From Streptomyces lycii (GTDB taxonomy: Bacteria > Actinomycetota > Actinomycetes > Streptomycetales > Streptomycetaceae): a stretch of 64,000 nt of DNA. The position numbers and the translations under genes were made by a program. The notes under the pieces are model-generated. The model saw only the letters and a program-made list of their open reading frames with translations, had not been told where the DNA came from and did not search any database. The number at the start of each line of letters is the position of its first letter. Within the stretch, counting starts at the first letter, position 1. Location: assembly GCF_009735685.1 (NCBI RefSeq), contig NZ_WHPN01000404.1, forward strand, positions 4,623 through 68,622, read 5' to 3'. Of the stretch, positions 21,246-57,058 are shown piece after piece.

Positions 21246-21373
21246 CTGAAACCGGCGTCCTGGAGCTACCAACTCCTCTGACCCGGGCCCGCCGAGAGGC
21301 GGATGCACATCGGCGCGGTGCCGACGGCTTTGCACGAGAAGTCGGCACCGCGTCTCCTTCGAACACCGAGGAG
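21246..21373 (+). promoter_or_regulatory. Structured leader of transfer operon (copy 1 of 2)
   Basis: This segment is homologous to the region upstream of the oppositely oriented replication/mobilisation operon (56926-57058, minus). Shared pieces, in order, are CTGAAACCGGCG, GGAGCTACCAACTCC, a CCGCC-GAGA-GGCGG hairpin, and a 10-bp hairpin CGGTGCCGAC/GTCGGCACCG with loop GGCTTTGCACGAGAA. These are followed by CTCCTTCGAAC and a GGAG. The stems differ between copies but remain paired, while the loops are conserved. It therefore looks like a transcribed cis-regulatory RNA. It matches no riboswitch family I recognise. Confidence 0.55.
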
Positions 21374-21381
21374 CCGCTGCG

Positions 21382-21468
21382 ATGCAGCATGCCCTGACAC
21401 ACCCGCGCCCCGACCCACCTCCCTCGACCGGTCCGCACCACCGACACGCTGAACGGCGGCGGCCGTGA
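21382..21468 (+). CDS. Putative proline-rich leader peptide
   Basis: A 28-residue reading frame beginning MQHALTHPRPDPPP. It starts eight bases after GAGGAG at the end of the structured leader. Its TGA overlaps the GTG of the NlpC/P60 gene (GTGA), the arrangement used for translational coupling elsewhere in this element. The gene downstream has no strong ribosome binding site of its own. Pro/Arg/His-rich leader frames also precede several other genes of the transfer region. Chance in high-GC DNA cannot be excluded. Confidence 0.35.
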   Translation: MQHALTHPRPDPPPSTGPHHRHAERRRP

Positions 21469-22610
21469 AGAAGACGACGGGAGCCCTCGTCGGTCTGTGC
21501 GCCACCGGACCACTCCTGCTGGCACTGCCGATCCTTGGCATCGGTGCCGGGACCGCCTCGGCTTCGTGCTCGACCGACGGTGCACAGGGTGTGGACGCCT
21601 CCGCCGTCGCCAAGCAGGTGAAGGCCATCCTGGACGGCGGCGACAAGGGCTCGGTCTCCGTGCCGGGTCTGGACGCGCCTGCCGACCAAGTGCCCAACGC
21701 CAAGACGATCCAGGCCACGGGCGTCGCGATGAACATCCCCGCCCGAGGGCAGGTCGTCGCCCTGGCGACCGCGCTGCAGGAGAGCGGCCTGCGGAACCTG
21801 ACCTACGGCGACCGCGATTCGCTGGGTCTCTTCCAGCAGCGGCCGTCGATGGGCTGGGGTACGGCCAGCCAGATCCTCGACCCGGTGCACGCCTCGACGA
21901 AGTTCTACGAGGGGCTCAAGAAGGTCTCCGGCTGGCAGTCCCTCTCTGTCACCCAGGCCGCCCAGGCGGTACAGAAGTCGGGCTTCCCGGAGGCGTACGC
22001 CAAATGGGAGCCGCTGGCCACCGCCCTGCAGAAGGCCATCGAGCCCCTGCTGCAGAAGGCTGGCGGCGCATCGCCGAGCCCGTCGCCGTCCGGCTCTGCC
22101 GACACCGGCAGCCCCTCTCCCGATTCCGCGGGGGGTTGTTCGGCGGACGGCGATGGGACGGACTTCGGCACCATCCCGGCGGGCGTACTGCCGGAGGAGT
22201 ACAAGATTCCCGCCTCCGCGCCGCCGAAGGTACAGACGGCGATCCGGTGGGCGCTCGGCCAGCTCGGCACCCCGTATCAGTGGGGCGGCACGTGCACCGA
22301 CTCCCACGGCAAAAACCCGATGGGCCGCTGCGACTGCTCCTCCCTGATGCAGGGCGCGTACAAGGCCGCCGGGGTCACCCTGACGCGGACCACGTACACG
22401 CAGGTCAAGGACGGCAAGGCCGTCTCGGTCGATGCCCTCAAGCCGGGCGACCTCCTCTTCACCGAGGGGACGGCCGCCGTACCGGAACACGTCGGGATGG
22501 CGATCGGGCAGGGCCTGATCGTCCACGCCCCGCACACCGGTGACGTCGTACGGATCACCACCGTCGCGTCCTGGAAATCGCGGACTCTCGCGGCCCGCCG
22601 AGTCGTCTGA
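21465..22610 (+). CDS. VirB1-like cell-wall hydrolase with NlpC/P60 domain
   Basis: A 381-residue exported protein that should open the peptidoglycan for the conjugation channel. The N-terminal hydrophobic segment (about 8-33) is a signal peptide or anchor. Residues ~45-200 form a lysozyme-like region of the kind found in actinobacterial conjugation proteins (LQESGLRNL, LGLFQQRPSMGWG). A Ser/Pro linker follows. The C-terminal NlpC/P60 domain has catalytic Cys291 in CDCSS, His342 in EHVGMAIG and a third polar residue near HAPH (about 353). GTG start. First clear gene of the transfer operon, downstream of the structured leader. Confidence 0.85.
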   Translation: MKKTTGALVGLCATGPLLLALPILGIGAGTASASCSTDGAQGVDASAVAKQVKAILDGGDKGSVSVPGLDAPADQVPNAKTIQATGVAMNIPARGQVVALATALQESGLRNLTYGDRDSLGLFQQRPSMGWGTASQILDPVHASTKFYEGLKKVSGWQSLSVTQAAQAVQKSGFPEAYAKWEPLATALQKAIEPLLQKAGGASPSPSPSGSADTGSPSPDSAGGCSADGDGTDFGTIPAGVLPEEYKIPASAPPKVQTAIRWALGQLGTPYQWGGTCTDSHGKNPMGRCDCSSLMQGAYKAAGVTLTRTTYTQVKDGKAVSVDALKPGDLLFTEGTAAVPEHVGMAIGQGLIVHAPHTGDVVRITTVASWKSRTLAARRVV

Positions 22611-22699
22611 CCGGCGCTCCTCCCCCCTCCTCACCTCCCCTCGCACCGCTGGTTCGCCCCACCGGGCTTTGGCGTGCACTCATTCGAACTGGAGTTCCC

Positions 22700-23008
22700 T
22701 TGTATCTCGCTGAACAGGTCATACAGCTCGCCTACGACCCCGGAATCAAGCCCAACGAGGGCGGGCTCCCTGGCCTCAACGTCCTCAAGCAGGTGATGGG
22801 CTCGATCAACTTGTTCGGACTCATTGCCGTGGTCGGAGCCCTCGCCGTCAGTGCGGGCGTGTGGGCCTGGGGTCACCACTCCGGTGGTCACCAGGCCGAG
22901 GCGAACGGGAAGAAGGGCGTGCTGGTAAGCGCGGGCGCGGCCCTTCTTCTCGGTGCGGCCAACGGTGTGGTGGCGTTCTTCTCGACGCTCGGGACGCAGG
23001 TCCACTGA
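22700..23008 (+). CDS. Small integral membrane protein (DUF6112-like)
   Basis: A 102-residue protein with two hydrophobic helices (about 35-57 and 74-95) separated by a short basic His/Gly loop. Small proteins of this type precede SCO6881/SCO6880-like genes in actinobacterial transfer modules and probably belong to the channel, perhaps VirB2-like. TTG start with GGAG five bases upstream. Its stop overlaps the next ATG by one base. The 89-bp gap after the NlpC gene holds nothing else. Family identification is from length, topology and context. Confidence 0.7.
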   Translation: MYLAEQVIQLAYDPGIKPNEGGLPGLNVLKQVMGSINLFGLIAVVGALAVSAGVWAWGHHSGGHQAEANGKKGVLVSAGAALLLGAANGVVAFFSTLGTQVH

Positions 23009-23688
23009 TGGCTCAGCACTCCACCCACCCCGGCGGCGCATCTCGCGTGCGCCGCCGGGCGCTGCTCGGCACTGCCGTCCTGGCGGTGCTCGTCGCCCTC
23101 GCCGGCCTGGCCGCCTACCTCACCCGCGAGGGCCGAAGCCCCTCCGATACTGCTTCCCCACCGCCGAGTTCGCCCACGGCGTCCTCGTCGCCCGCGGCAC
23201 CGTCCGGGCCGCACACCCGGCCCCGCGCTCTGCCCGTTCCGCCGAAAACCCACGACCCGATCACGTACGGGAAGGCCGCCGCCGCAGCGCTGTGGTCGTA
23301 CGACACCCGCGCGTACTCGCAGCCCGAGCTGCGCAAGGCGCTGCGCGGCTGGCTGACCACGGAGTCGAAGTACGCCGACCCGGCCTCCGTCGACCAGGCG
23401 GTCCCCTCGGCCGTGCTGTGGAAGGAGATGGCGGCCAACAGGCAGGTCGCCACCGCCAAGATCAACGAGGGGCACTTCCCGCACGCCTTTACCCAGGCCC
23501 TCCAGGACGACCCCGGGGCGATCACCCAGGCGTACGTCTACGCCATCACGGTCTCCGGCAAGCAGTCGATTCGCTGGAAGGGCTCGGCCGCCGGCGGCGC
23601 GGAGAGCCGGTCCACCACCCTCGCGGTCCAGTGCCGGCCCAACCACTCCTGCGCCCTGGTCGGCGTCATGCCGTCCGTCGCGCCCTGA
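23008..23688 (+). CDS. Single-pass transfer protein, possibly VirB8-like
   Basis: A 226-residue protein. A short cytoplasmic tail precedes one membrane helix (about 18-37), then a Ser/Pro linker (about 45-75) and a compact extracellular domain (about 80-226) with a cysteine pair near the end (CRPNHSC). This topology and the position in the operon fit a VirB8/TraH-like assembly factor with an NTF2-like domain, but no decisive motif is visible. The ATG overlaps the stop of the preceding gene (TGATG). Role is inferred from context. Confidence 0.7.
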   Translation: MAQHSTHPGGASRVRRRALLGTAVLAVLVALAGLAAYLTREGRSPSDTASPPPSSPTASSSPAAPSGPHTRPRALPVPPKTHDPITYGKAAAAALWSYDTRAYSQPELRKALRGWLTTESKYADPASVDQAVPSAVLWKEMAANRQVATAKINEGHFPHAFTQALQDDPGAITQAYVYAITVSGKQSIRWKGSAAGGAESRSTTLAVQCRPNHSCALVGVMPSVAP

Positions 23689-23716
23689 CCCTCGCCCCAG
23701 AACGGAGGTACGACCC

Positions 23717-25126
23717 ATGGGAGTCTGCGACTTCCCGCTGATGGACAAGGTGTGCGGCGCTGTCGACTTCGCCACCAACCCCGCCGGCACCGTCACCGAC
23801 GGTCTCGGCGCGTGGATCGCGAAGTCGGCGGGCGAGCTGGCGTCCAGCGCGGCCGACCTGGCCGCCAAGGCCGTCAACAAGACGACGGCCATCGACCTCA
23901 ACGCCGGGTGGTTCCGCGACAACTACGAGCTGCTGCTGCCCATCGGCCTCGCCCTGACCGTCGGCATCTTCTGCATCCAGCTCATGACCGCGGCCTGGCG
24001 CCGAGACGAACGTGCCCTCGCCAAGGCGGCGTTCGGCACCATGACCGGAGTCCTGTTCAGCTTCTCCGCGATCGCTTTCACGACCGTCGCCATCACCGTG
24101 GTGGACGCGCTGTCCGACGGCCTCTTCAAAGCCGCCAACACCTCGATCGACGACGCGATCCGTCGTGTGATCAAGGTTGATCAGATGGGGGCCATGTACG
24201 GCCTCGGCTGGGGTGTGCCCGCGCTGGTGGCCTTCGGGTGCGCGATCGGTGCCTTCCTCTACTGGGGCGTGATGGTGGCCCGCAAGGTAGGTGTCCTGAT
24301 CATGGTCGCGCTCGCGGTGTTCGCCGGGGCGGGCGGCGGCTGGGAAGTCGCCAAACGGTGGCGGCGCGGCTGGATCGAGGCCACCGGAACCCTGATCGTC
24401 TCCAAGCTGTTGATGACCGTGGTCTTCCTGATCGGCGTCTCCGCCATGGGCAAGACCGACGCCAGCGACGGAATGGCGGCCCTGTCCGACGCGATGGCTG
24501 GCATCGTCGTGATGGTCCTGGTGTTGCTCTGCCCCTACGCGACGTACAAGTTCGTCCACTGGGCCAGCGACGGCGGCGGCCACGACGACATGCACCGCAC
24601 CGGTGTCGCCGGCATGGCGGTCGCCGCAGGAGCCGCGAAGACCGCAGGCAGCCTCGCACTGCGGGCCGGTACCGGCGCCCCCGCTCCGCAGGGTCCGAAC
24701 CAGGTCCCGGGCGCGGGCACCGATGGCGTCGCCTCCGGCATCAACCCCTCCGGCGGCAACCTCAGCAAGGAGGGCATCGACGCCGGGCCGCCCAAGCAGC
24801 AGACCCGCTTCCGGTACGGCGAAGACCCGAACGCGAGCGGCGACAAGGGCCGGGCTCTGATCCAGCGCCCCGGGATCCCGCCGCTGATCACACGTCCTGG
24901 CGAGGACGAACCGGAAGGGTCCGAATCGACTGCCCAAGGCGTTGCGGGCGGCTCCGGTCACCTTGCAGCCGCATCGGCTCCGGGCGGCGACATGACCTCC
25001 ATGCCGCCAGCCGACCCCGGACCTTCGGCCTCGGGCACTCCGGCGTCCGCGTCCGGTCCGTCGGCCACCGGCTCCGCGACGCCGACGAACTGGGTGTATC
25101 CCACCCAGCCGCCGTCGGGTTCCTGA
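23717..25126 (+). CDS. SCO6881-like polytopic membrane protein (VirB6/TrbL-like)
   Basis: A 469-residue protein with about six membrane helices between residues 75 and 290, followed by a long disordered Gly/Pro/Ser-rich cytoplasmic or extracellular tail. This layout is that of VirB6/TrbL inner-membrane channel subunits and of the SCO6881 family in Streptomyces. ATG start preceded by GGAGG. It lies between the VirB8-like and SCO6880-like genes, and a hairpin follows its stop. No catalytic motif is expected or seen. Confidence 0.75.
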   Translation: MGVCDFPLMDKVCGAVDFATNPAGTVTDGLGAWIAKSAGELASSAADLAAKAVNKTTAIDLNAGWFRDNYELLLPIGLALTVGIFCIQLMTAAWRRDERALAKAAFGTMTGVLFSFSAIAFTTVAITVVDALSDGLFKAANTSIDDAIRRVIKVDQMGAMYGLGWGVPALVAFGCAIGAFLYWGVMVARKVGVLIMVALAVFAGAGGGWEVAKRWRRGWIEATGTLIVSKLLMTVVFLIGVSAMGKTDASDGMAALSDAMAGIVVMVLVLLCPYATYKFVHWASDGGGHDDMHRTGVAGMAVAAGAAKTAGSLALRAGTGAPAPQGPNQVPGAGTDGVASGINPSGGNLSKEGIDAGPPKQQTRFRYGEDPNASGDKGRALIQRPGIPPLITRPGEDEPEGSESTAQGVAGGSGHLAAASAPGGDMTSMPPADPGPSASGTPASASGPSATGSATPTNWVYPTQPPSGS

Positions 25127-25136
25127 CCCACATCCC

Positions 25137-25169: not shown

Positions 25170-25196
25170 CCTCCCCTCCAGCAGGAAGGTTTCGCC

Positions 25197-44502: not shown

Positions 44503-45279
44503 TCAACGAGGCGGGAGCGATGCAAGATGAGACCGCACGCGCCGGCTGAAGTGTGCTGCACAACGCGTGTCTCTCACGAGTGCGGCCAGGTTGTGCCATA
44601 CGGTCTGGCGAATATCCCTGGGCGTTGTCCGATGATGGCGTGCCAGGGTCTGCTCCACGTCGGCGACGTTACCGGGCAGTGGCTGAGCGGAGCTGCGGTC
44701 ACCGAAGGGGTGGTCGGTCTCGGTCAGCACACGATCGAGCGGGATGGTCTGCAGCAGAGCCGTCTTGCGTGCGGCGGAGACGTTGACGGAGAAGTAACAG
44801 CCCAGGCGGACGGCGCGGGCGGTCTGTTCCGGGTCGCCAAGCCACCAGTGGAGGACCATGCCAGGGGCCGGGGCACGTTCGAGTTCGTCGAGCACCTGCT
44901 CGCAGGCGCCGTAGCTGTGGATGCTGGCGATGCGCGGGGTGCGCTCCAGGACGCCGAGGACACTGCGGAAAGTGGTCTGCTGGCGATCTAGCGGGACGCG
45001 GCTCTTGCCGTCGAGTCCGATCTCGCTGACCAGGGGGGTGTGGGCGATCAGCTGGGTGAAGGCGTCGGGGTCGAATGCGGTGTGGCTGCGGGCGAGTCCG
45101 GGATGAGCGCCGACTCCCCAGATGATCCGGTCGTCGTGCCGCTGGACGGCCTCAGTGGCCTCGGTCAGGGAACGGGTGGCGGCGAAGATGACGGCGCCCA
45201 GGCCTGCGAGGTCGTCGGCCGGGACGCTGCTGTCGATGTGTGCGTGCAGGTCCAGCGGCGGCAGTGCGCTCGTCCTCAT
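44503..45279 (-). CDS. qatD: QatD, TatD-like hydrolase
   Basis: A 258-residue TatD-family metal hydrolase. The metal ligands HAH (H12, H14) open the TIM barrel, followed by VGAHPGL, SEIGLDG (Glu ligand), HSYG, HWW and the terminal TETDHPFG (Asp ligand). In the Qat defence system this TatD-like nuclease is one of four required proteins. Last gene of qatABCD; its ATG overlaps the qatC stop. The in-frame extension upstream belongs to the shadow of qatC. Confidence 0.88.
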   Translation of the reverse strand: MRTSALPPLDLHAHIDSSVPADDLAGLGAVIFAATRSLTEATEAVQRHDDRIIWGVGAHPGLARSHTAFDPDAFTQLIAHTPLVSEIGLDGKSRVPLDRQQTTFRSVLGVLERTPRIASIHSYGACEQVLDELERAPAPGMVLHWWLGDPEQTARAVRLGCYFSVNVSAARKTALLQTIPLDRVLTETDHPFGDRSSAQPLPGNVADVEQTLARHHRTTPRDIRQTVWHNLAALVRDTRCAAHFSRRVRSHLASLPPR

Positions 45280-46565
45280 GGGTACAGCAACTCCAGTTCT
45301 GCGACGCCCCGCCTGCACAGGTCGTAGGCCTGACGGGTGGAGTAGTCGGAGGGCAGGTTCAGGGTGGTGATGTCGGCCGGGCGCAGCCCGCGAGCGAGGA
45401 AGGTGCGCAGGGAGGGTTCGACCGACTTGCCGGTCAGGTAGGCGCTGAGGTTCTCGGCGTGGCGGGTGTGAAGGTAGTCGGTCGTGTCCTCGATCTGGGC
45501 GGCGCGGAAGGAGGCGCGGCGCAGCAGGCAGCCGAAGCACACGCCGCAGTGGGTGCGTACGGGGATGCGGTGAGTGCGGTGTCCGGTGTGGGCGCAGGAG
45601 TGGGTGTTGCTGAGCAGCCGAGTGGCTGCGGCGGGGCCGACCAGTTCGGCGGCCCGGGTGAACATTTCGCCTTTGGTGTGGGCGGCGAAGGGGTTGTGGA
45701 TGTGTGCGTGGGCTCCGGCGTCGTGGGCGATGGCAGCCAGGGTCTGCAGGAAGAGGGGGTGGGTGGTGCGGGTAGACACGGCGCCGCGCTGGTCGGCGGT
45801 GAGCGGCACGTTGAGGGAGGCGAAGCCGTTCTCCGGGATCCACAGTGGGACCTTTTCCACTGCTGCGGCGGCCAGGCCGAGGGCGAGGAAGAGCAGGGAG
45901 CGGGTGCGGGTGGAGTACTCGTTGGGCAGTTTCGTGCCGGTGGGCTGATGGCTTTTGCGGGAGAAGCGCAGGGCCTGGTGCGGCTGTGGGGGGCCGTCGA
46001 TGAGGTATCCGATGGTGTCGGCGACGGTTCGCTGGATGGGGGCGAGGGTGGTGGCGCCGACGTGGGAGAGCAGCAGATGCTGCTCGGGGCCGAGGTCGTG
46101 GCGGGAGTGCAGGGCGCCGACGGCGGAGTCGGCGCCGCCGCTGAGCAGGACCACTCGCCGGATCCCGGGGTGCGGTGTGTCGTGGATGGTTTCGTGCGGG
46201 GTGCCAGCGGTGTGGAAGCGGATCGACCATCGGTCTCCGGACAGGAACGCCAGGAGGGCTTCGAGGCGTTCGCGCACCGCGGTCCAGCGGGCCGGGTCGT
46301 AGACGGGGATGTCCAGTTCGAAGGTGCGCTGGGTCCAGTTGGAGTGGGCGGCGCGGCGGGTAGTGGTGCGGTCGGCGGCGTAGACCAGGGCGGCCAGGCG
46401 GACCAGTTCGATGTTGGGTTCGGGGACGGGGCCCAGGGCTCCCAGTGACGGACCGAGAGTGGAGACGAAGGAGCCGCCCGCCCCGGCGGGCCACCAGAAC
46501 ACGGTGGTGTCGTCGGGCGCGGGGCGGGTGGTGTCCGCGTCCAGGCGCATGGTGTAGGCGGGCAT
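45276..46565 (-). CDS. qatC: QatC, QueC-like nucleotide-modifying protein
   Basis: A 429-residue protein with the PP-loop ATP pyrophosphatase motif LLSGGADSAVGAL (S142, G143, G144, D146, S147) of the 7-cyano-7-deazaguanine synthase QueC. A zinc-type HCGVCFGCLLR motif near residue 340 agrees with QueC. QatC-type proteins are longer than QueC and define the Qat system; the chemistry used in defence is not established. ATG start overlapping the qatB stop (ATGA). Confidence 0.88.
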   Translation of the reverse strand: MPAYTMRLDADTTRPAPDDTTVFWWPAGAGGSFVSTLGPSLGALGPVPEPNIELVRLAALVYAADRTTTRRAAHSNWTQRTFELDIPVYDPARWTAVRERLEALLAFLSGDRWSIRFHTAGTPHETIHDTPHPGIRRVVLLSGGADSAVGALHSRHDLGPEQHLLLSHVGATTLAPIQRTVADTIGYLIDGPPQPHQALRFSRKSHQPTGTKLPNEYSTRTRSLLFLALGLAAAAVEKVPLWIPENGFASLNVPLTADQRGAVSTRTTHPLFLQTLAAIAHDAGAHAHIHNPFAAHTKGEMFTRAAELVGPAAATRLLSNTHSCAHTGHRTHRIPVRTHCGVCFGCLLRRASFRAAQIEDTTDYLHTRHAENLSAYLTGKSVEPSLRTFLARGLRPADITTLNLPSDYSTRQAYDLCRRGVAELELLYP

Positions 46566-47341
46566 CAGGGCTCCATCCAGATGGACCGCATCGCGGTGAT
46601 GCCCTCTTCGACGGCCTGGGTGATCTCGGTGGTGCTGGGACCGGTGATCGTGAGGGAGGTGCGGTCGGCCAGGGCGCGTGCGGTCTCGCGCAGTTGGCGT
46701 TCGCCGTCGGCAGTGGCCCAGGCGGGGCGGGAGCCGTCGTTCATCTTCGCCGCGGTCTCGCTGATGACCGCTTCGAAGATGATCAGGGCCAGGGTTTCCC
46801 GGACGACTTCGTCGGGGCTGGGGGGTGTGCTGTCGGTGCCAGCTTCCAGGACCCATTGAGCTACTTCGCTGGCGACGAAGCGGCGTTCCTGGTCTTCGAT
46901 GGTGCCGTCGGCGAGCGGCCCGCAGGCCGCGTCCACGATGCGGCGGGTCCAGTCGATCGGGTCGGCGGCGGCGGCCTGCAGTTGTGCGTAGTCGAGGCCA
47001 AGTTCGTGCAGAGCCTGCGCGTTGCCGGTGCGGTAGGCGTAGGCCGCGGCCGCGGCACGGCCTGCGGTGCGTGAGGACCGGGCGACGCTGCGCTGCGCCC
47101 CTCCCCCGCTACGGCCTCCTCCGGCCCCTCCGGCCCCTCCGCCTCCGCCGCCGGGGCCGTCGGCGTGGCCGCCGGAGGGGCGGAACAAGCCGAGGGCAGG
47201 GATCAGCTGATCGGTGTTGAGCTGGGGTGGGGGCGCGCCGGGACCGGAGCCGGCTAGAGCGTCGAGCCACTGGGTGATGTTGTGCTGCAGTTGTTTGCTG
47301 GCCGGTGTGCCGTTTCCGGTGTAGGAGCCTTTGGTGCCCAT
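46565..47341 (-). CDS. qatB: QatB
   Basis: A 258-residue protein at the qatB position. The N-terminus (MGTKGSYTGNG) and a Gly-rich low-complexity segment (about 60-85) precede a helical C-terminal half with no enzymatic motif. QatB proteins are poorly characterised and known only by association. Gene order, the ATGA overlaps on both sides and the length all agree with qatABCD operons. Confidence 0.82.
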   Translation of the reverse strand: MGTKGSYTGNGTPASKQLQHNITQWLDALAGSGPGAPPPQLNTDQLIPALGLFRPSGGHADGPGGGGGGAGGAGGGRSGGGAQRSVARSSRTAGRAAAAAYAYRTGNAQALHELGLDYAQLQAAAADPIDWTRRIVDAACGPLADGTIEDQERRFVASEVAQWVLEAGTDSTPPSPDEVVRETLALIIFEAVISETAAKMNDGSRPAWATADGERQLRETARALADRTSLTITGPSTTEITQAVEEGITAMRSIWMEP

Positions 47342-49251
47342 CAGCGGCTGCTTCCTGTGCCCAGCGCGTGGTCGAGGGTGCGCCCGATCTGGTCCTGGCC
47401 GGCCGGGACATGGCTCTTCCAGTGCTCTAGCACGCCGCGGAAGACGGGGACGGCGGACGGGAGAACCAGGATGGTGGCCGGTTGCAATTCTCGGGCAGGA
47501 ATGGACTGAAGGAGGCGGGTGGCCCGCTCGGCACTGGCCGGGTAGGCAGTGGTGATGCGAACCAGGCTGCGCACGGCTGCGGTCTGTTCGGTAGGCCGGT
47601 CTCGGCCGGCCCGGCCGAGGTATTCGACCAGGCTCGCAGCGTCGTCCTCGCCGAGCGCGGTGATGTCGGCTTCGGTGACCCGGCGCTGGTCGAAGCGCAC
47701 GCTGGACAGCAGGTTGGCCGCGATGTCGCGCAGCCGACCGGGCAGTCCGGCGTCGAGGAGCTGCTCGCCGGTGAACGCGGCTGCCAGGTAGAGGTAGGGG
47801 GCCAGGTCCACGGGGCCGAGGTCGGGGGGAAGTTTGGCCCATCGGATCAGGTCGTCGTCGAAGGCGACCGGCTCGCTCTCGCCTTCGTCCGGCGTCGGTT
47901 GCTGTTCCGGGGAAGCAGCGTCGTCGGGATCGGGGTCGGCGGCGATGGGGGGTTCAGGGGCGGGCCGGCCGGCGGTTGTCTCCAGTTTGGCCATGCGGGG
48001 ACGCAGTTCGCCGCGGGCCAGCCATCCCAGGACGGTAGCGAAGGCGTTGGGCAGCAGCTTCTCCAGAACCATGAGCTTGGCCACGATGTCCGGCTCGAGT
48101 TCGATGCCGCGATGGCCGGCGACGGACTGGCGCACCCGCAGGTCGTTGAGAAAGCGCTTGATGCGGCGGGGGCTGCCTTGGAGCTTCTCGTAGAGGATGG
48201 GTGTCATCCGTGAGGCAAAGGCCATTTCGGCGAAGATGTCGTTGCCGTTCACGGCCTCGGCCAGGTCGTCCAGCAGGCCCTTCTCCAGCCGCAGGTGTAC
48301 GCAGGCCTCGATATAGGGGGTGAGTTCCTCGACGGTCAGGCGCTGAGAGAGCTGCAGCAGGACGAGGAATGCCTCGGTGTCGAAGCGGCTCAGGGTGGGC
48401 AGCGGCACCGTGGTCTGCACGATCTTGTGCAGGTAGAGGCTGGCCGGTTCCTCGAAGTATCTCTCTTGCGCTGCCTGTTGTCCGCTGCCGGGGTCGGGGA
48501 AGCGGGCTCGCAGGGCGTCGGCAACCCGGTGCTCGTCGGCGGCGACGACGAAGGCCATCTTCGGCACGGCCAGGAACAGCCGGATGGTCTCCAGCGTGTC
48601 CACGACCGTGTCGGGCAGGCAGCGGTCGAGATCGTCGACCAGCACGACCACGCGCCTGAGGTGGCTGAGTTCGGCGGACTCCATCAGTGTGCGGAACTCA
48701 CTGCGGAATTCGCCGAGTCCGCGTGAGGGCGGGTCGCCTGCGTCGGCATCATCGTTGCTGGGCTCGGTGTTGATCAGGCTGGTGAGGTCGTCGACGGAAG
48801 GCAACTGCAGGGTCAGGGACGTCTTGGCCGCCACTTGCAGGGCCTTGGCCCAGTCGACTCGCTGGCGCAGCTTGGTCAGCATCGTCCGGGCGCGGCTGAT
48901 GCGGCCCTCTGGCTGTTCCTTCTTGGCGAGCTCGGCGGCGACGGCGCTGAGCACCTCGCCGATCAGGGTTTCCTTGGCGCCCACACCGGGGTCGTAGCGC
49001 CACGGGTCTGTGCTGATCACGAGAATGGTCGTGTCCGTTGCGGGCGGCTTGGGGGCGAGTTCGTCCTCGATGAGGCGGAGCACGGTGGTCTTGCCACTCC
49101 CCCAGGCGCCCGAGACTCCGACGGTCACCGGGTCAAGGGCGTCGTCGAGGACTGCCTGGACCACAGTTTTGGCCACCGCGTCAAAAGACAGAAGATCCAG
49201 GCGGGTCGGCTCGTCCGACCACAGCTGTGCAGACATATTGCTCTTGCCCAT
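47341..49251 (-). CDS. qatA: QatA, KAP-family P-loop ATPase
   Basis: A 636-residue KAP NTPase. Walker A is GAWGSGKTTVL (about 48-58), and the extended Walker B VVVLVDDLDRCLPD (about 201-214) is characteristic of KAP proteins. A FVVAADEHRV strand follows. QatA is the ATPase that defines the Qat system. First gene of the operon; ATG at 49251, with a second in-frame ATG five codons later. About 260 bp upstream, before the IS remnant, must hold the promoter. Confidence 0.87.
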   Translation of the reverse strand: MGKSNMSAQLWSDEPTRLDLLSFDAVAKTVVQAVLDDALDPVTVGVSGAWGSGKTTVLRLIEDELAPKPPATDTTILVISTDPWRYDPGVGAKETLIGEVLSAVAAELAKKEQPEGRISRARTMLTKLRQRVDWAKALQVAAKTSLTLQLPSVDDLTSLINTEPSNDDADAGDPPSRGLGEFRSEFRTLMESAELSHLRRVVVLVDDLDRCLPDTVVDTLETIRLFLAVPKMAFVVAADEHRVADALRARFPDPGSGQQAAQERYFEEPASLYLHKIVQTTVPLPTLSRFDTEAFLVLLQLSQRLTVEELTPYIEACVHLRLEKGLLDDLAEAVNGNDIFAEMAFASRMTPILYEKLQGSPRRIKRFLNDLRVRQSVAGHRGIELEPDIVAKLMVLEKLLPNAFATVLGWLARGELRPRMAKLETTAGRPAPEPPIAADPDPDDAASPEQQPTPDEGESEPVAFDDDLIRWAKLPPDLGPVDLAPYLYLAAAFTGEQLLDAGLPGRLRDIAANLLSSVRFDQRRVTEADITALGEDDAASLVEYLGRAGRDRPTEQTAAVRSLVRITTAYPASAERATRLLQSIPARELQPATILVLPSAVPVFRGVLEHWKSHVPAGQDQIGRTLDHALGTGSSR

Positions 49252-50371: not shown

Positions 50372-52132
50372 TCAGCGACGTGGCGAGCGGCGGTTGGGGT
50401 CTTGAACAGTCCCGAGCAGCGCGGCTGCCGTCGCGTTTCGTTCACTGGTGCGGCTGCTCGGCGTGGTGGCCTGGCGGGTGGCGGCCTGCGGACGACGGGC
50501 ACCGTCACCCGGGTGTGCCGGGAGCTGGGCGATGCGCCGCAGGCGCCAGACCAGGACGTCGTTCACGTCATCGGCGCTGTCGAGTTCGCGCATGTCGATG
50601 GCCTGGCGCAGGAGGGCTTCGGAGTCGTGGCCTGCCCGCTCGGCCTGGGCAAGGGTGGCGACCAAGGCGTCGGTCCTCGCTTCCGTGCCTCCTGCCCGTA
50701 CGACCTTCTCGGGCAGGACGGCGCGAAGGGTGGCCTCGTGCATGAGGCGTTGGGCGTCAGGAAGGGCGCGGCCTTGGTCGTGCAGCATGCGCATCGGGGT
50801 GGCGGCGGCCTGCCGGTAGGCGGTGCGCAGGTGCGCGGCGGCTTGTCGGGAGGCGTCGGCCTGCTGGGCGTGTCCGCGGGCGGAGTGCCAGCGGGCGGCG
50901 GCGAGGGTGACGAGGACGAGGGTGGAGACGAGCATGGCGGTGGTGCCGCCGTCCTCGCCTCGGCCGAGCGCCCCGCCGGCCTGGACAATGCCTCGGGCGG
51001 CTGAGCGGAGGGCCCGGGTGTCGGCGCGTTCGGCGCGGACATGACTGCGGGTTGCCCGTTCGAAGGCGCGAGCTGCGGCGGCCAGCTCGGTGCGGGTAGT
51101 GGCCGGTGAGGTCTGGGCCACTGCGTCGAGGAGTTCTCCGACGCCGACGAGCTGGGGGGCGGCCTCGCCGTCCTCATCGCGTTCCAGGAGCGTGGCCGAG
51201 CGCTCTGCGATGACGGTGGCGTTGCGTCGTTGACGGGCGGGCGGTGACCAGTTCGTCCGGTCAGCCGCGACCGCGGGCGCGCTCGGCTCGGCGGCCCCAT
51301 CGGTGAGGCGTAGGCGGATCTTCGGAAGGGAGAGGTCGGGGCCCAGTTTGGAGCCGGGGTACCAGACCGGGGCTCCGTCGCGGTTGCGGTCGCCGGGCAG
51401 GGCCACGTTGTAGCCGAGCGCGTCACCAGACGGTGCGTGCCGCAGCTTCACCCGTACTCCCGCCTCTCGGAGCCGCGTGAAGAACTCCTCTTCCGAATCC
51501 GCTCCCGCCACGGCTCGACGAACGGCCTCGCGGAGCGTCTCGCGCGAGGTCTCCGGGCGGCCGGTGCGCTCGGCCTTGAACTTCTCGGCGCTGCTGGGAT
51601 TCTTCGCTGCGGTTCCGTCGCCCGTGTTCAGGCGCCGCAGGCCCATCTCCTTCTCGATGCGGCGGCATTCGGCCTGGGCCTTGTTGAAGTCGTAGTTCAG
51701 GCGCGGGTTGCGCAGGTCGCCGCGTACGAGGGTGGCGACGATGTGGATGTGGTCTTCCGCGTGGCGGACGGCGATCCACCGGCAGCCGTCGGAGTCTCCA
51801 GCCGGGGCGATGCCGGTGGCGTGGACGATGCGCTGGGCGACGGCGTTCCACTCCTCGTCGTCCAGCCGCCGGTCCCCGGGGGCTGTGCGGACCGAGCAGT
51901 GCCAGACGTGCTTGGCGGGTGCGCGGTCGCCGGCCTGCTTGACCCGCAGGTCCAGGGCGGCGGTGAGCCGGGCGAGGGTGACCTTCGGGTCGGGGTCGAG
52001 GCCGGGGTCGGGGGCGAAGCCGTCCCAGGAGCCGACGAGGTGTGCGTCGGTGTGCTCCTCGCGCCGTCCGGGGCCGTACAGGTAGACGAGGAGTCCGTGG
52101 GTGCGGGAGCCGCGTCCGATGTCGGGAACCAT
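50372..52132 (-). CDS. Relaxase / mobilisation nuclease
   Basis: A 586-residue relaxase that should nick oriT and pilot the strand. The HUH motif is RHAEDHIHIVATL (H124, H128, H130). The N-terminal GLLVYLYGPGR supplies a candidate nucleophilic Tyr (Y17 or Y19). The C-terminal half is helical and Arg/Ala-rich, ending PNRRSPRR, a basic end like that expected for type IV secretion. The ATG at 52132 overlaps the mobC stop (TGATG); a GTG one codon earlier is also possible. A MobC-like gene directly upstream completes the relaxosome. Confidence 0.88.
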   Translation of the reverse strand: MVPDIGRGSRTHGLLVYLYGPGRREEHTDAHLVGSWDGFAPDPGLDPDPKVTLARLTAALDLRVKQAGDRAPAKHVWHCSVRTAPGDRRLDDEEWNAVAQRIVHATGIAPAGDSDGCRWIAVRHAEDHIHIVATLVRGDLRNPRLNYDFNKAQAECRRIEKEMGLRRLNTGDGTAAKNPSSAEKFKAERTGRPETSRETLREAVRRAVAGADSEEEFFTRLREAGVRVKLRHAPSGDALGYNVALPGDRNRDGAPVWYPGSKLGPDLSLPKIRLRLTDGAAEPSAPAVAADRTNWSPPARQRRNATVIAERSATLLERDEDGEAAPQLVGVGELLDAVAQTSPATTRTELAAAARAFERATRSHVRAERADTRALRSAARGIVQAGGALGRGEDGGTTAMLVSTLVLVTLAAARWHSARGHAQQADASRQAAAHLRTAYRQAAATPMRMLHDQGRALPDAQRLMHEATLRAVLPEKVVRAGGTEARTDALVATLAQAERAGHDSEALLRQAIDMRELDSADDVNDVLVWRLRRIAQLPAHPGDGARRPQAATRQATTPSSRTSERNATAAALLGTVQDPNRRSPRR

Positions 52133-52797
52133 CACAGCCGCCGGGTCACCAGGTCGTTCGCCGCGTCATCGACGCGGGCGAGAACTCCGGTCAGCGCGCC
52201 CAGCGCGCGTTCGAGTTCACCGGCGCGCGGCTGGCCACCGCTGTTGAGGACGAAGGCGATCTGGTTGATGTTGTTGCCGATCCGGGCCAGCGCGGTGCGC
52301 AGAGCGGCGAGTTCGTCGATGGCGGTGTCGAGCTGGTCGTTGCTGTTCACGGCGGCGCATCCGCGGGCGGCGCTCAGGCCGGAGACGGCGAGGAAGCGGG
52401 CGACGGTGACGCCGCGCTTGGTGGCGGCCTCGGCGATCTCGGTCTTCTCGGTGTCGGAGAGGCGGGTGGTCGTCTTGCGGGTGCGCTCGCTGGGGTTGCG
52501 GGTGCGGCGGCGCGGTTTGCGGTCGGGGTAGGCGGGCGTGCTCGGGCTCGGCTGCTCGCGGTGGTCGTCACGGTCGGCTTCTCCCCCGGTGACCGGCGCC
52601 CCCTGGTGCCGGTTGCCCGGCTGGTCCCCGTGCGCCCTCGCTCGGGGACCAGCCGGGCTTCCCCCGCCCTCCTGGGCGGGGGCAAGTGCGTACGTCGGGC
52701 CGTAGGACCGTCGTACGCGATAGCTTGCTCCGCCAGGAGCCGTGGTGGGGTCACGCTGCTGTCCAGCGGAGGTGGCCACCGGGTCGTTGCTGTTCAC
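52132..52797 (-). CDS. MobC-like relaxosome accessory protein
   Basis: A 221-residue protein. After a disordered basic N-terminal half, residues ~105-215 match the MobC family: a ribbon-helix-helix-like RLSDTEKTEIAEAATKRG, then ALARIGNNINQIAFVLNSGG, the MobC hallmark. It should bind oriT and aid the relaxase. GTG start overlapping the upstream small gene; stop overlapping the relaxase start. The order MobC-relaxase is usual. Confidence 0.87.
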   Translation of the reverse strand: MNSNDPVATSAGQQRDPTTAPGGASYRVRRSYGPTYALAPAQEGGGSPAGPRARAHGDQPGNRHQGAPVTGGEADRDDHREQPSPSTPAYPDRKPRRRTRNPSERTRKTTTRLSDTEKTEIAEAATKRGVTVARFLAVSGLSAARGCAAVNSNDQLDTAIDELAALRTALARIGNNINQIAFVLNSGGQPRAGELERALGALTGVLARVDDAANDLVTRRL

Positions 52798-53018
52798 CGG
52801 CTCGTCTCCGGGTCCTGCTGCTGGATTTCGCGGACGAGTTCCTCGATCCAGTCCATGGCCAGGACGGGGTGGTGCAGGGTCCAGGGCCGGTCGTGCTGCT
52901 CGCGTTGCACGATCCAGGTGGTGTCGGGGCCGGACTGGGCGCGGTGGAGGTGTCCGTGCTGGTGCAGGACGGTCAGCCAGGAGTCGACTTCGGCGGGCGT
53001 GGCCGGGTGAGTGCGCAT
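52794..53018 (-). CDS. Small protein upstream of mobC
   Basis: A 74-residue protein (MRTHPATPAEVDSWLTVLHQ onwards) with helical N- and C-termini and a central strand TTWIVQREQHDR. Its stop overlaps the mobC start. It lies next to the candidate oriT inverted repeat and may take part in DNA processing. No family recognised; tight coupling and composition support it. Confidence 0.6.
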   Translation of the reverse strand: MRTHPATPAEVDSWLTVLHQHGHLHRAQSGPDTTWIVQREQHDRPWTLHHPVLAMDWIEELVREIQQQDPETSR

Positions 53019-53064
53019 CGGGTGCTCTCCGCTTCTGCTGTGGCGGGGTGTGTCGGTGACATGC

Positions 53065-53108
53065 GGAGTGGGTGACCGGCCGGGGTGACCGGTTCGGTCA
53101 CCCACTCC
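53065..53108. other. Candidate oriT inverted repeat
   Basis: GGAGTGGGTGACCG and CGGTCACCCACTCC form a perfect 14-bp inverted repeat with a 16-base loop. It lies in the 102-bp gap upstream of the small gene, mobC and relaxase genes. Such repeats next to a nick region are typical of oriT. As it also lies behind the DUF2637 gene, a terminator is the alternative. No known nic sequence was recognised. Confidence 0.45.
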
Positions 53109-53120
53109 GTGGAGGTTCGG

Positions 53121-54188
53121 TCAGGGCCGGGAGGAAGTGACCGGCTGGCGGTGCTGCTCACGCAGCTGAGCCATCAGCGCGGTCAGGGTGTCGCTGGACA
53201 GCGGGATCTGCTGACCTCGGATCGCCTGGGCGACCACCTTGCGGGTCAGTTTGTCCTCGGCCCTGACCGCCGACCGGGCGATCGCCAGCAGCTCCTCGGT
53301 GTCCGGGTCAGGACGCCGGTCACCAGTCGGCCGAGCGGCCCGGTCAGTGACCGGCGGCGAGGTGACCGGCGGGGCACTGACCGCCGCCGGGCTGCCCTGG
53401 TCATCACCGACCGGGGCCGCACTGCCGGGGCGGTCAGTGACCGTCCGACCCTTGTCCGCCTGTCCCGGCAGGTCAGGGGCACCGTGGCTGCGGTTGTGGT
53501 GGTCGGTGACCGACTGGCCGCTGGTCGCCGGGGTCGAGTCTCCGGTCACTGACCGGGCGGCGGTGTCCTCGTCGGTCGGGGACAGCGGCAGCCGGTCGGT
53601 CAGAGCGGTGACCGACTGACCGGACTTGACCTGACCGGCCGCTGACCACTGCTGACCGGCTCGGTCGGTCCGGGTGACCTCGATAGCGTCGCCCCGGTCG
53701 GTCTCACCGAGGTGACCGGGCTGACCGAGGTTCTGCCGGCCAGAGTCCTCGACCGGGCCCCGGGCAATGAGGATGTAGAGGTGGACCGCTCCGGCCAGTG
53801 CGAGCGGGGCAATGGTGGAGAGCACCGCGACCACCGCGTCACCGAGCTGGAGGCCGGTGCCGGCGACCGTGTCCTGGTTGATGCGCACCGCGTGGAGTGC
53901 GTTGGCCCAGATGCTGGCGGCGGTGGCCGTGCCGAAGAGCGTCCAGACGTAGAGCCGGGCGCGCAGTGGTGCGTTGCGCAGGACCAGGAGGGCTCGGATG
54001 CCGTAGGCGATGAACCCATCGATCACCAGGGGGAACAGGTAGGTAAGGAAGCCTCGGATGTGGATGGCCACGGCCATCTGCTGCAGGGCGTCGTACGACA
54101 GCGCGCACCCCGCGCCCCCGAGCGCCACGACAGCCGCGCGGTCCCACCCGGATATGTGCGCCGTCTTCGACGCGCTTGCGATGTTCAT
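53121..54188 (-). CDS. DUF2637 membrane protein
   Basis: A 355-residue protein. About four N-terminal membrane helices (residues 18-135) match DUF2637/SpdB-like proteins of actinobacterial plasmids, implicated in plasmid spread. The middle (about 145-285) is low-complexity with repeated VTDR/DRP units, encoded by densely repeated TGACCG. The last 60 residues form a helix-turn-helix-like domain (KLTRKVVAQAIRG, SSDTLTALMAQLRE). ATG overlapping the upstream whiB stop (ATGA). Confidence 0.78.
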   Translation of the reverse strand: MNIASASKTAHISGWDRAAVVALGGAGCALSYDALQQMAVAIHIRGFLTYLFPLVIDGFIAYGIRALLVLRNAPLRARLYVWTLFGTATAASIWANALHAVRINQDTVAGTGLQLGDAVVAVLSTIAPLALAGAVHLYILIARGPVEDSGRQNLGQPGHLGETDRGDAIEVTRTDRAGQQWSAAGQVKSGQSVTALTDRLPLSPTDEDTAARSVTGDSTPATSGQSVTDHHNRSHGAPDLPGQADKGRTVTDRPGSAAPVGDDQGSPAAVSAPPVTSPPVTDRAARPTGDRRPDPDTEELLAIARSAVRAEDKLTRKVVAQAIRGQQIPLSSDTLTALMAQLREQHRQPVTSSRP

Positions 54189-54751
54189 GCCGCCGTCCCG
54201 AAGTCGTCGCGGATCAGGCGCTCGCCGCTGGTCTCGGGGGGCGTGGTGTTCGTGGTGGGCTGGTTCAGGGTTCGGTTGCGCTCGGCCCGGCGGATCTCGC
54301 GGTACCGCTTCTTGGCGTGCTCCTCGGTGACCTTCAGAAGCCAGGCCAGGCGCTGCTCGCTCACCCCGTGGCGGTAGGCCGCGTACTCGACCGCGCGGCG
54401 CTCCGTATGGGTGAGGTGCACGTCGCGTCCGGCGATGGTGGCATTGACGCGGCTGTAGTCGAGGCGGCTGGCGAGCTTGCCGTGCAGCGGCCCGCGCTCC
54501 TCTTCCGTCAGGCCGCCACGGATCCCGTCGGTGTCACCCCCTTCGAGAGCGGCGTCCAGGCAGGTGCGCCGGACCGGGCACTGGCCGCACAGGGCCTTGG
54601 CCGTGGCGATCTTGGCGGTCTCGTCGGGTTCGGGGAAGAAGACTTCGGGGTCCACCGGGTTGTACTCGGTGTTCTGGCAGACGGCGTCGGCCTGCCAGGT
54701 CTGGTCGCCGAGCTGACGGTGGTGGGCGGGGCCGTTCATCGTGCTGGTCAT
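54185..54751 (-). CDS. WhiB-family iron-sulfur regulator
   Basis: A 188-residue WhiB-like protein. The 4Fe-4S ligands are C25, C55, C58 and C64 (AVCQNTE; LCGQCPVRRTC). The following turn is GIRGG where most WhiB proteins have G[VI]WGG. The C-terminal ~100 residues add a basic helix-turn-helix-like region (SEQRLAWLLKVTEEHAKKRY) absent from chromosomal WhiB proteins. Plasmid and phage WhiB proteins often control their own element or host sigma factors. ATG at 54751; longer in-frame starts give low-complexity sequence. Confidence 0.85.
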   Translation of the reverse strand: MTSTMNGPAHHRQLGDQTWQADAVCQNTEYNPVDPEVFFPEPDETAKIATAKALCGQCPVRRTCLDAALEGGDTDGIRGGLTEEERGPLHGKLASRLDYSRVNATIAGRDVHLTHTERRAVEYAAYRHGVSEQRLAWLLKVTEEHAKKRYREIRRAERNRTLNQPTTNTTPPETSGERLIRDDFGTAA

Positions 54752-54867
54752 GCGGGTGCTCCGATCGCTCTCCGCGCGCAGGGGCGTCGGCGGAGAGGTG
54801 CGCTGGCGGTAGGTACCCGGGGGACGGCGCTGCGAGGGCGCGGTCCGGCGGGGTGGCCTGTGGAGGG

Positions 54868-55572
54868 TCAGGCGGCGGCGCTGTGGCGTCTGCGGTCGAC
54901 GGCCTCGAACTCGACTCGGGTGGTCATCTGCGCGAGCCTGCTGGCGACTCGGTCCCCGAGGTAGGAACGCAGGTCCTTGATCGCCAGGTTGGTCGTGATC
55001 AGCGTGGGGAGTTCGTAGTTGTACCGCCGGTTGATCAGCCGGTACGTGATCTCCTCGACCCACTCGCTCGCCTTGGCCGCGCCGAGGTCGTCGATGATCA
55101 GCAGCGGGCACCGGCTGACGGCCGCCAGCTCCCGCTCACTGTCCACCCCGGGTCGGGGACGGAGATCGGCGTAGAGGTCGGCGGCGGTGGTCGCCCGCCA
55201 GCGCGCGCCGACCCCGCTCTGCACCAGCGCTCGGACTGCGCCGTACGCCTGGTGTGTCTTGCCCGCGCCGACGACCCCGGCCATCAGCAAGCTAGGGCCG
55301 GTGGTGACCTGTCGTCGGGCTCCTCGGCTGGGGGCGACGGCCGCGTCGGTGACCCTCCGGACCCACTCCAGGACCGTGGGGTGGTCGGCGACAGCCGTTT
55401 GATAGCGCGGGGGCATCCCGGCGAGCAGAGCGTCCAGCGGCGAGAAGGGCTCGGCGTCGTCCGGCAGCGCGGCGTCGGCCGGGTCGATGTTGCGGGCGGC
55501 CAGGATCCGGGCCATGCGCTCCAGCGTGGCTTCGTTGCCGAGGAGCTGAGGTTCGCGGTGACGGGTGTGCAT
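54868..55572 (-). CDS. DnaC/IstB-like ATP-binding protein
   Basis: A 234-residue AAA+ ATPase. Walker A is GVVGAGKTHQ (about 101-110), Walker B CPLLIIDDLGAAK, and sensor 1 LITTNLAIKDLRSY, as in DnaC-type helicase loaders. It should load the replicative helicase onto the element's origin. The ATG overlaps the stop of the preceding replication-protein gene, the usual initiator-loader pairing. C-terminal EAVDRRRH is typical of the family. Confidence 0.82.
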   Translation of the reverse strand: MHTRHREPQLLGNEATLERMARILAARNIDPADAALPDDAEPFSPLDALLAGMPPRYQTAVADHPTVLEWVRRVTDAAVAPSRGARRQVTTGPSLLMAGVVGAGKTHQAYGAVRALVQSGVGARWRATTAADLYADLRPRPGVDSERELAAVSRCPLLIIDDLGAAKASEWVEEITYRLINRRYNYELPTLITTNLAIKDLRSYLGDRVASRLAQMTTRVEFEAVDRRRHSAAA

Positions 55573-56591
55573 CACAGCTCCTCGGCGTAGGCGGCAGAAG
55601 CGTTGGCCGGGTTGGTCCACGCCTGGTGGGCGGGCACGTTAGGCCGGATTCCCGGCCGCGCCAAACCGCCGGGGCGAGCGTTCATCGCCTCGTTGACCAT
55701 GCTGGTCAGCACGCTCGGGTGCTTGGGGTTGGCCGTGAAGTTCGCCAGCCCGGCTCGGATGTGCGCCGGTGCGATGCCCTCGTCCAGGAGCTTCTTGATG
55801 ATCCGGCCGAGGTGCCCGATCACGTCGCTCGGGGGGCGCTGGTCGCACCCGGCGACGTACTCCCCGACGAGGTCCTTGGCGGAGATGCCGGCTGCGGGCG
55901 CTGTGCGCCCCGTAGGGACAAGAGATCCAGGATCCAAGATCCTAGATCCAGGCGCCGAGCCTTCGGGGAGGCTTCGGGGAAGGTTCGGGGAGCCGCCGGA
56001 GACAACCCTCTGAGCTGCACTTTTAACTCCGGTCCGCCCGGGTGCGCTGCTGGCTGCATCAGCGGCCTCCTGCCGGTCGGCGGCTGGCCCGTCTGCCTGT
56101 TCCGACACCGTCGAGGAGGGTGCGGCAGGAAGATCGAGAGCTCGGGGTGCCCTCGCCGAGGTCTCAGCGAGTCCTCGGGGAGTGGTGGGCGAGTCCTTCC
56201 CCCTCTGGGAGCAGGAGCCCTTGCAGGGGGCGCATCGGTCGGCAGCCTGGTGCTGCGGGCACGAGGGCAGGCGCGACTGGCTCGGCTTGTCGATCTTCTG
56301 GTGCTCGGACCAGGTCACGATGTGGAGGTAGAGGCGACCGTCGCATCCGGTGTATCGGCAGATCAGTCCGGCGTTCGCGAGCTGGTGGAGGTCGTCTTCG
56401 ACGTGGACCGAGGTGTGCTCGGCGCGCAGGGGCCAGAGGAGCCCCGCGATGATCGCGGCGTTGTCCCGGTGGCGACCATGGTCGTCGGCCTGGGTGAGCA
56501 GGCCGAAGAAGGTCCGCTCGGCCGCCACGGTCACTTCGGCGAGCGACTCGGACGTGAACGCCTCCGGCTTGACGGTTCGGATCCGGGCCAT
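55572..56591 (-). CDS. Replication initiator-like (phage replisome organiser type)
   Basis: A 339-residue protein beginning MARIRTVKPEAFTSESLAEV, the signature of actinobacterial phage and element replication proteins with an N-terminal winged helix (TFFGLLTQADDHGRHRD, LHQLANAGLICRY). A Pro/Ser-rich linker with a Cys cluster (CPQHQ...CAPCKGSC) and a C-terminal helical domain (VGEYVAGCDQRPPSDVIGHL) follow. It probably binds the origin and recruits the DnaC-like ATPase. ATG start; one base separates it from the upstream gene. The shared CGGCCGCGCCAAAC core lies near its 3' end. Confidence 0.75.
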   Translation of the reverse strand: MARIRTVKPEAFTSESLAEVTVAAERTFFGLLTQADDHGRHRDNAAIIAGLLWPLRAEHTSVHVEDDLHQLANAGLICRYTGCDGRLYLHIVTWSEHQKIDKPSQSRLPSCPQHQAADRCAPCKGSCSQRGKDSPTTPRGLAETSARAPRALDLPAAPSSTVSEQADGPAADRQEAADAASSAPGRTGVKSAAQRVVSGGSPNLPRSLPEGSAPGSRILDPGSLVPTGRTAPAAGISAKDLVGEYVAGCDQRPPSDVIGHLGRIIKKLLDEGIAPAHIRAGLANFTANPKHPSVLTSMVNEAMNARPGGLARPGIRPNVPAHQAWTNPANASAAYAEEL

Positions 56592-56592
56592 C

Positions 56593-56919
56593 TCAGCGGC
56601 CCCGCTCAGCGGCGACCAGGTCGCTGCGGGTCAGGGTGGCGTCGGCAAGGCAGAAGGTGTGGGGGCGCATCCAATCCACCTCCGGCCAGACCCGCAGGAT
56701 CCAGCGTGCCACGACCCTGGCGGTCGGGCGGCCCAGCTCCAGGGTCCTTCCGGCCTGGTCCTTGACGACGGCGTGCAGATGAGGCCACGTCCGTGTCGGG
56801 TCGGTGAGGCTGACCCGGATCGTGGCCGCCCCCGGGATCATGTCGGCGAGCTGTGCGGCGAGGCGGCGCGGACGGCCGTCGTCCGCGCAGGCCGGGCTTC
56901 CGCTCGGCGTGGCGAGCAT
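56593..56919 (-). CDS. Small first gene of replication operon
   Basis: A 108-residue protein with beta-strand content (AATIRVSLTDPTRTWPHLHA) and a helix (ARVVARWILRVWPEVD). No family recognised. It is the first gene behind the second copy of the structured leader, with CGGAG six bases before its ATG, and so should respond to whatever that leader senses. The following replication gene starts one base after its stop. Confidence 0.65.
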   Translation of the reverse strand: MLATPSGSPACADDGRPRRLAAQLADMIPGAATIRVSLTDPTRTWPHLHAVVKDQAGRTLELGRPTARVVARWILRVWPEVDWMRPHTFCLADATLTRSDLVAAERGR

Positions 56920-56925
56920 GCGATA

Positions 56926-57058
56926 CTCCGTTGTTCGAAGGAGCGCGGTGCGGCGGTCTCGTGCAAGAAGCCCTGCCGCCCGCGTGATGTGTAATTGGCG
57001 CCCCTCGGGGTGCCAGCCCGGCGCTTGGGAGTTGGTAGCTCCTCGGCGCCGGTTTCAG
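56926..57058 (-). promoter_or_regulatory. Structured leader of replication/mobilisation operon (copy 2 of 2)
   Basis: Minus-strand homologue of the leader at 21246-21373. Conserved boxes are CTGAAACCGGCG, GGAGCTACCAACTCC, a CCC-CGAG-GGG hairpin flanked by paired GGC/GCC, loop GGCTTCTTGCACGAGA closed by a GGCGG/CCGCC stem, CACCGCG, CTCCTTCGAAC, and GGAG. Stem sequences differ from copy 1 but still pair. It lies directly upstream of the operon start, in the same orientation relative to its genes as copy 1. Confidence 0.55.

Follow-up and report, generated by a model that had tools for sequence, protein, structure and literature searches.

How might a conjugative element set its replication and its transfer in step? 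To our knowledge, how Streptomyces elements with a type IV secretion system (T4SS) time the two processes is largely open. The question is raised by a 64-kb window (the whole stretch of Streptomyces lycii DNA that was analysed), which is part of a 98-kb contig in a genome of 7.65 Mb and contains a conjugative element. Its transfer (T4SS) operon runs rightwards from 21.2 kb with genes for NlpC/P60, SCO6881-family, EccE-like and TraG-type coupling proteins, and the opposed replication/relaxase operon runs leftwards from 57 kb. Each operon is preceded by a leader of about 135 nt, at 21248-21384 (plus strand) and 57056-56917 (minus strand). The original prediction took this pair for a cis-regulatory RNA that co-ordinates transfer with replication. 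The leaders were found to share one fold and to belong to a family in the Streptomycetaceae. The favoured reading, to which we give a probability of roughly 0.4, is that they are paired 5' leaders of conjugative elements of this family, through which one shared, element-specific partner would gate the translation of both operons.

A family of paired leaders

The leader fold consists of four hairpins, P1 to P4, and finishes at the Shine-Dalgarno (SD) sequence. The hairpins are placed in the window as follows.

21252-21286, plus strand: P1 of the transfer-side leader, with the loop CTACCAA at 21266-21272
21289-21302, plus strand: P2 of the transfer-side leader, CCGCC/GGCGG, from the fold and compensatory change
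21314-21352, plus strand: P3 of the transfer-side leader, with the loop GGCTTTGCACGAGAA at 21326-21340
21354-21373, plus strand: P4 of the transfer-side leader, CTCCT opposite AGGAG, the SD sequence of the second upstream open reading frame (uORF2); a single compensatory cell
57018-57052, minus strand: P1 of the replication-side leader, with the loop CTACCAA at 57038-57032
56996-57015, minus strand: P2 of the replication-side leader, TGGC-A-CCC/GGG-C-GCCA, from the fold and compensatory change
56944-56984, minus strand: P3 of the replication-side leader, with the loop core CTTCTTGCACGAG at 56970-56958
56926-56943, minus strand: P4 of the replication-side leader, CTCC opposite GGAG, the SD sequence of a 108-aa gene

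In both leaders, the P1 arms GGAG and CTCC flank the loop and are nested within CCGG.../...CCGG, P3 is a long stem closed by the loop CTT..GCACGAG, and P4 sets CTCC(T) against the GGAG of the SD sequence. The P3 stem reads CGCGGTGCCGAC/GTCGGCACCGCG in one leader and CGCGG-GCGGC/GCCGC-A-CCGCG in the other. The minimum free energy z-scores of the two leaders were -3.9 and -3.0. All of the shared boxes that had been predicted were found at both leaders in the expected order and strand. The two hairpins noticed at matching places are P2 and P3, to which GGAG..CTCC adds P1 as a third. The ordered set of boxes goes beyond chance; this does not hold for a single 11-mer, as CTCCTTCGAAC with up to 2 mismatches was found 31 times against 18 expected. 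GGAGCTACCAACTCC occurs in two exact copies in the window, and these are the only exact copies in the genome.

The leaders match no known class. No Rfam 15 family reached its gathering score in the window, and the matches of each leader lay far under the cut-off, in agreement with the prediction that no riboswitch class would be recognised. Three other identities were rejected. Although the string CGGCACCGCG recalls a T-box leader, no T-box model matched up to an E-value of 10. The motif name 'NLPC-P60' corresponded to no Streptomyces RNA motif in the open-access literature searched and to no Rfam match. The replication-side leader is open throughout as a coding sequence in some copies, but the length differences are not multiples of three. 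No account of the paired leader was found in the open-access literature searched or in Rfam 15.

Homologues were collected in two ways. The exact P1 box, a 15-mer that fixes the inner stem and loop of P1 by construction, matched at least 119 genome stretches. Among the matches listed, 47 loci had the remaining boxes together with a start codon (28 transfer-side and 19 replication-side, the two of the window included), and all of their named genomes were Streptomyces, Kitasatospora, Streptacidiphilus or Actinacidiphila. The covariance-model sets are without that constraint. The model was trained on 17 replication-side leaders only, and it detected the transfer-side leader of the window with 64 bits (E 5.7e-15). 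Its matches were found in 42 of 295 Streptomyces genomes, in 45 of the 200 genomes of a family sample (9 of 17 genera) and in 29 of the 197 genomes of an order sample (1 of 6 genera). In a class sample a leader appeared in 3 of 246 genomes, and the sole one outside the family was weak (32.6 bits). A plasmid collection held one transfer-side relative, on the S. angustmyceticus plasmid p1, and no replication-side match. As the original prediction had anticipated, many homologues lie before NlpC/P60 transfer operons and replication/relaxase operons.

Both leaders stood on one contig in 53 elements, 17 to 103 kb apart, and all 53 pairs were convergent (21 in the Streptomyces set, 24 in the family sample and 8 in the order sample). 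The remaining genomes had a single leader, or two on separate contigs. Two element lineages, A/B and C/D, were recognised, with orthologous operons in a conserved gene order. In one genome (G090; L185, 4890-5135), two model matches of 92.8 and 35 bits overlap at P1 on opposite strands, which is possibly a divergent second leader or merely a palindromic P1. One leader of the transfer side (L184, G170:C1:1937601) follows the window copy almost letter for letter as far as P3 and then passes, before the loop, into unrelated sequence, a natural break within the leader.

Compensatory change and matched loops

The prediction that the stems differ in sequence and yet remain paired was confirmed on 98 leaders (95 distinct rows) fitted to the covariance model. 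Paired cells made up 89.0% of this alignment and compensatory change was seen in 29 of 37 base pairs. The covariation score was 0.344, against 0.126 after shuffling (none of 500 shuffles reached it) and at most 0.074 when the structure was slid. An arm-swap test independent of the alignment gave the same answer with 90 of the 99 leaders, the anchors being missing in 9: for P1 as for P3, the leaders' own arms outdid the exchanged ones in each of 5000 permutations. Within single types, with anchor-bearing leaders only and with three A-type leaders (L155, L152 and L073) under the label B, P3 passed in types A and B and P1 in types B and C. The test failed for P1 in A and D and for P3 in C and D.

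The loops behave differently from the stems. They are CUACCAA and CUUUUGCACGAG in the A/B lineage, and UUAGCAG and CUUUUCGACGAG in the C/D lineage; within each lineage the same loops stand in both leaders on different stems. Matching was scored in 52 of the 53 pairs, 17 of them called by hand and descent uncorrected. The P3 loop dinucleotide agreed in 49 of 52 pairs (34.5 expected with partners shuffled) and the P1 core in 43 of 52 (30.1 expected). One genome, G344, holds two elements: the first (G344a) has CC in both leaders and the second (G344b) has GC in both. In another genome (G431), the unusual P1 loop CUGCGAA occurs in both leaders. In a scan of 5 elements, the loops recurred nowhere else in full; two partial matches with 2 mismatches were all that appeared. 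The matching, including two differing elements in one genome, supports one element-specific partner that would serve both leaders, and agreement within an element is what co-ordination would predict. Of the idea that the element sets the loops and operon orthology the stems, the first half was retained; the stems showed no clear preference for operon orthology or for element (81 of 99 leaders).

The loop comparison also bears on the proposal that the leader is a riboswitch for a small molecule. A length of about 135 nt, multiple hairpins, conserved loops at an SD sequence and the missing Rfam match would suit such a class. However, the P1 and P3 loops change between lineages in both leaders together, unlike an aptamer with a fixed ligand, and the neighbouring genes point to no metabolite. 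A riboswitch is considered very improbable.

Translation start and upstream reading frames

The short reading frames and the additional hairpin near the leaders are placed in the window as follows.

21201-21281, plus strand: uORF1 of the transfer side, with a GTG start, encoding VHCLRLRARLAAARDLKPASWSYQLL and a stop inside P1; AGA-TTA-CGA at codons 5-7
21222-21240, plus strand: P0 hairpin GCGCGGC-TGGCT-GCCGCGC within uORF1, belonging to the motif GATTACGAGCGCGGC
21382-21468, plus strand: uORF2, 28 codons, encoding MQHALTHPRPDPPPSTGPHHRHAERRRP; the stop codon and the initial GTG of the NlpC/P60 gene overlap
57072-57119, minus strand: short frame before the replication-side leader, encoding MTSEKEAGQIPAYDP; relatives likewise end in Pro-stop

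SD pairing was computed for all but 3 of the 99 leaders and for 11 control genes with an SD sequence. The SD was strongly paired in type A (mean unpaired 0.08) and type B (0.15), against 0.29 in the control genes; the window copies gave 0.02 and 0.03. The conserved box CCTAC(G/A)A directly precedes the SD sequence in all four types at a near-constant distance. The length of uORF2 is 26-30 codons in 27 of 28 transfer-side loci.

Another frame, uORF1, is conserved on the transfer side. In all 53 pairs the transfer-side leader is preceded by the motif GATTACGAG with at most one mismatch; one further leader of the transfer-side type (L178) is without the uORF1 motif. All 95 distinct sequences place a start codon (GTG 79, ATG 12, TTG 4) precisely five codons ahead of TTA; the invariance of the TTA is partly by construction, as it is in the collecting motif, and the position of the start codon is not. 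An SD sequence precedes uORF1 in 92 of the 95, and CGA completes the rare-codon run AGA-TTA-CGA in 87. For comparison, TTA accounts for 0 of 869 leucine codons and AGA for 13 of 818 arginine codons in the 29 genes of the window element. The peptide, M-x-x-LRLRARLAAA, runs across the P0 hairpin. It ends mostly inside P1 in type A and directly before P1 in type D. A connection with bldA, or with arrest by macrolides at +X+ motifs, is conceivable. Since uORF1 is conserved, transcription on the transfer side would start upstream of the boxes, and not downstream of them as a refutation of the original prediction would require.

On the replication side, an SD-bearing short frame ends in Pro-stop before P1 in 22 of 37 type B leaders, as counted by eye. 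The frame of the window ends in AYDP-stop, and others read MHARGP-stop and MRAHGP-stop. It is possible that these frames encode a termination-arrest peptide.

From these features we infer the partner and the regulated step. On the best-supported reading the leaders are cis-regulatory, are read through their loops by one element-specific partner and act most likely on translation initiation. The transcript of each operon would begin with its leader. One partner, most likely an RNA-binding protein encoded by the element, would recognise both leaders by their P1 loop, linker and P3 loop. Its binding would alter access to the SD sequence and start codon, which P4 and the CCTAC(G/A)A box abut, and the first frames of both operons would be translated or silenced in common. 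In transfer-side leaders, a ribosome translating uORF1 across AGA-TTA-CGA may provide a second input ahead of P1, and uORF2, coupled in translation to NlpC/P60 through the overlap of stop and start, may relay the signal to that gene. A wider version, a two-site RNA switch addressed to its element, was also considered: the loops would insulate co-resident elements such as G344a and G344b, and ribosome sensing by uORF1, through AGA-TTA-CGA and the +X+-rich peptide, would add a host-state or antibiotic input to transfer only. This version is rather doubtful. If it were true, replication could be on without transfer.

Several observations weigh against translational gating by a shared partner. No partner protein was found. 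The SD sequence is unmasked in types C (0.34) and D (0.41), which rules out SD masking in all types. P4 shows one compensatory cell only and therefore rests on its position rather than on covariation. In the A/B lineage alone, loop matching is weaker (P3 42 of 42 with 40.0 expected, P1 37 of 42 with 33.5 expected); it is partly shared descent. The leaders of two genomes (G318 and G294) mismatch in the P3 dinucleotide, and a recombinant element, G230, combines mismatched leaders of the C and A types. Its transfer genes, relaxase and NikA are of the A/B type and its replication genes and XRE regulator of the C/D type; either matching is not essential, or this is a recent hybrid in which co-ordination was lost. 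The stems show no clear operon preference, so leaders may have been exchanged with one another. Finally, G-U cells show no surplus over A-C cells (223 against 209; 78 against 85 in well-paired columns), and the complement strand folds slightly better for P1 (76 of 95) and P2 (65 of 95). The prediction of a co-ordinating RNA is partly supported, by the homologues, the compensatory change, the missing Rfam class and the matched loops; action as RNA on the leader strand, a transcript, a ligand and the co-ordination itself are putative.

This strand symmetry is at odds with a textbook single-strand RNA and leaves two rivals alive. In antisense control, both leader strands would be transcribed, and the antisense RNA of one leader would kiss the loops of both and so set replication and transfer. 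The wobble pairs without strand preference and the fold of P1 and P2 agree with it, and action in trans would need matching loops and not matching stems. A short coupled frame ahead of the main gene also recalls plasmid rep leaders. However, for P3 the leader strand gives the better fold (66 of 95), no separate antisense locus with complementary loops was found, and neither strand of the scanned regions showed a promoter-like site, though the sigma-70 consensus used is a weak test in Streptomyces. Antisense control is held to be unlikely. The second rival is an element acting as DNA, either a dyad operator or a hairpin in the single-stranded transferred DNA. Strand-symmetric compensation is natural here, and such elements do pass through single-stranded DNA. 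On the other hand, arms that drift while complementarity stays are unexplained by double-stranded recognition, and copies in opposite directions cannot share one orientation on the transferred strand. Both copies also finish at an SD sequence, and uORF1 implies that the region is transcribed. A DNA-level element is regarded as quite improbable.

The main rival is processive antitermination, in which the leader RNAs, like nut, put or conAn, alone or with an element protein, would modify RNA polymerase for read-through of the long operons. Element-specific loops suit the logic of boxB and N. Two homologous RNAs starting two opposed long operons are the layout of HK022 putL/putR, as described in PMC9378689, and an antitermination RNA heading a conjugation operon of more than 30 kb, pLS20 conAn, is described in PMC8955417. 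Against it, no sense terminator-like site was detected in either operon (2 and 2 matches, all antisense and below shuffles), although high-GC terminators may be without T runs. The near-constant distance from CCTAC(G/A)A to the SD sequence is not required by antitermination either. This rival is considered rather unlikely, and translational gating of both operons is kept as the favoured reading.

Element genes and known systems

The leaders adjoin the following genes of the window element.

21465-22610, plus strand: NlpC/P60 gene, first of the transfer (T4SS) operon, with orthologues in other elements
56593-56919, minus strand: 108-aa gene, first of the replication/relaxase operon, without a family match
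50372-56591, minus strand: remaining replication/mobilisation operon, encoding a 339-aa protein, an IstB/DnaC-like protein, DUF2637, a 103-aa protein, a NikA/MobC-like protein and a MobA/VirD2 relaxase
57476-58357, plus strand: XRE-type helix-turn-helix regulator, divergent, adjoining the replication-side leader

The predicted model of the 108-aa protein (pLDDT 81) gave no informative fold match, the best PDB match having an E-value of 0.11 with unrelated folds; the protein is a possible RNA-binding regulator. A DNA methyltransferase of the N4/N6 type (20138-20941, minus strand) is divergent from the transfer leader and is kept in 4 of 4 other elements compared, at 70-88% identity. Immediately left of the transfer operon, PADLOC models identified DISARM genes in series (5219-18917, plus strand: DrmD, DrmMI, DrmA, DrmB and DrmC). 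The same models gave a short prokaryotic Argonaute (pAgo class I) after an APAZ/REase partner at 641-3453 (plus strand). Cargo between the operons (44503-49251, minus strand) matches QatA, QatC and QatD and was present in 0 of 4 other elements compared. The SCO6878-6881 cluster is treated in PMC2782261; the literature compared also included PMC9513070, PMC2864571 and PMC3218068, the last with no matching passage.

The paired leader with its element-specific loops offers a concrete, testable control point, and two convergent leaders mark such elements in DNA. The two addresses in one genome and the mismatched recombinant are natural test cases for one partner serving both operons.

Four known systems come closest. 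Regulation by leader peptides is known from RLR-type Erm leaders, and bldA exerts control through TTA codons. The arginine-rich LRLRAR of uORF1 and its rare-codon run resemble them, but no resistance gene lies downstream here. The lambdoid nutL/nutR sites (boxA/boxB) with N are likewise paired in opposed operons, and the boxB loop is phage-specific; the leader described here is far longer. The pLS20 conAn system (ConAn1 protein and conAn2 RNA) also has an RNA heading a long Gram-positive conjugation operon (PMC8955417). It is described for the start of a single operon that holds over 20 terminators, whereas the leader here occurs in two copies and no sense terminators were detected. HK022 putL/putR are homologous multi-hairpin RNAs, one starting each of two early operons (PMC9378689); put is about 70 nt long with two stem-loops, binds the beta' zinc domain of RNA polymerase and needs no trans factor for its action on the enzyme. 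In contrast, the leaders of the Streptomycetaceae elements have four hairpins in about 135 nt, end at the SD sequence and carry element-specific loops.

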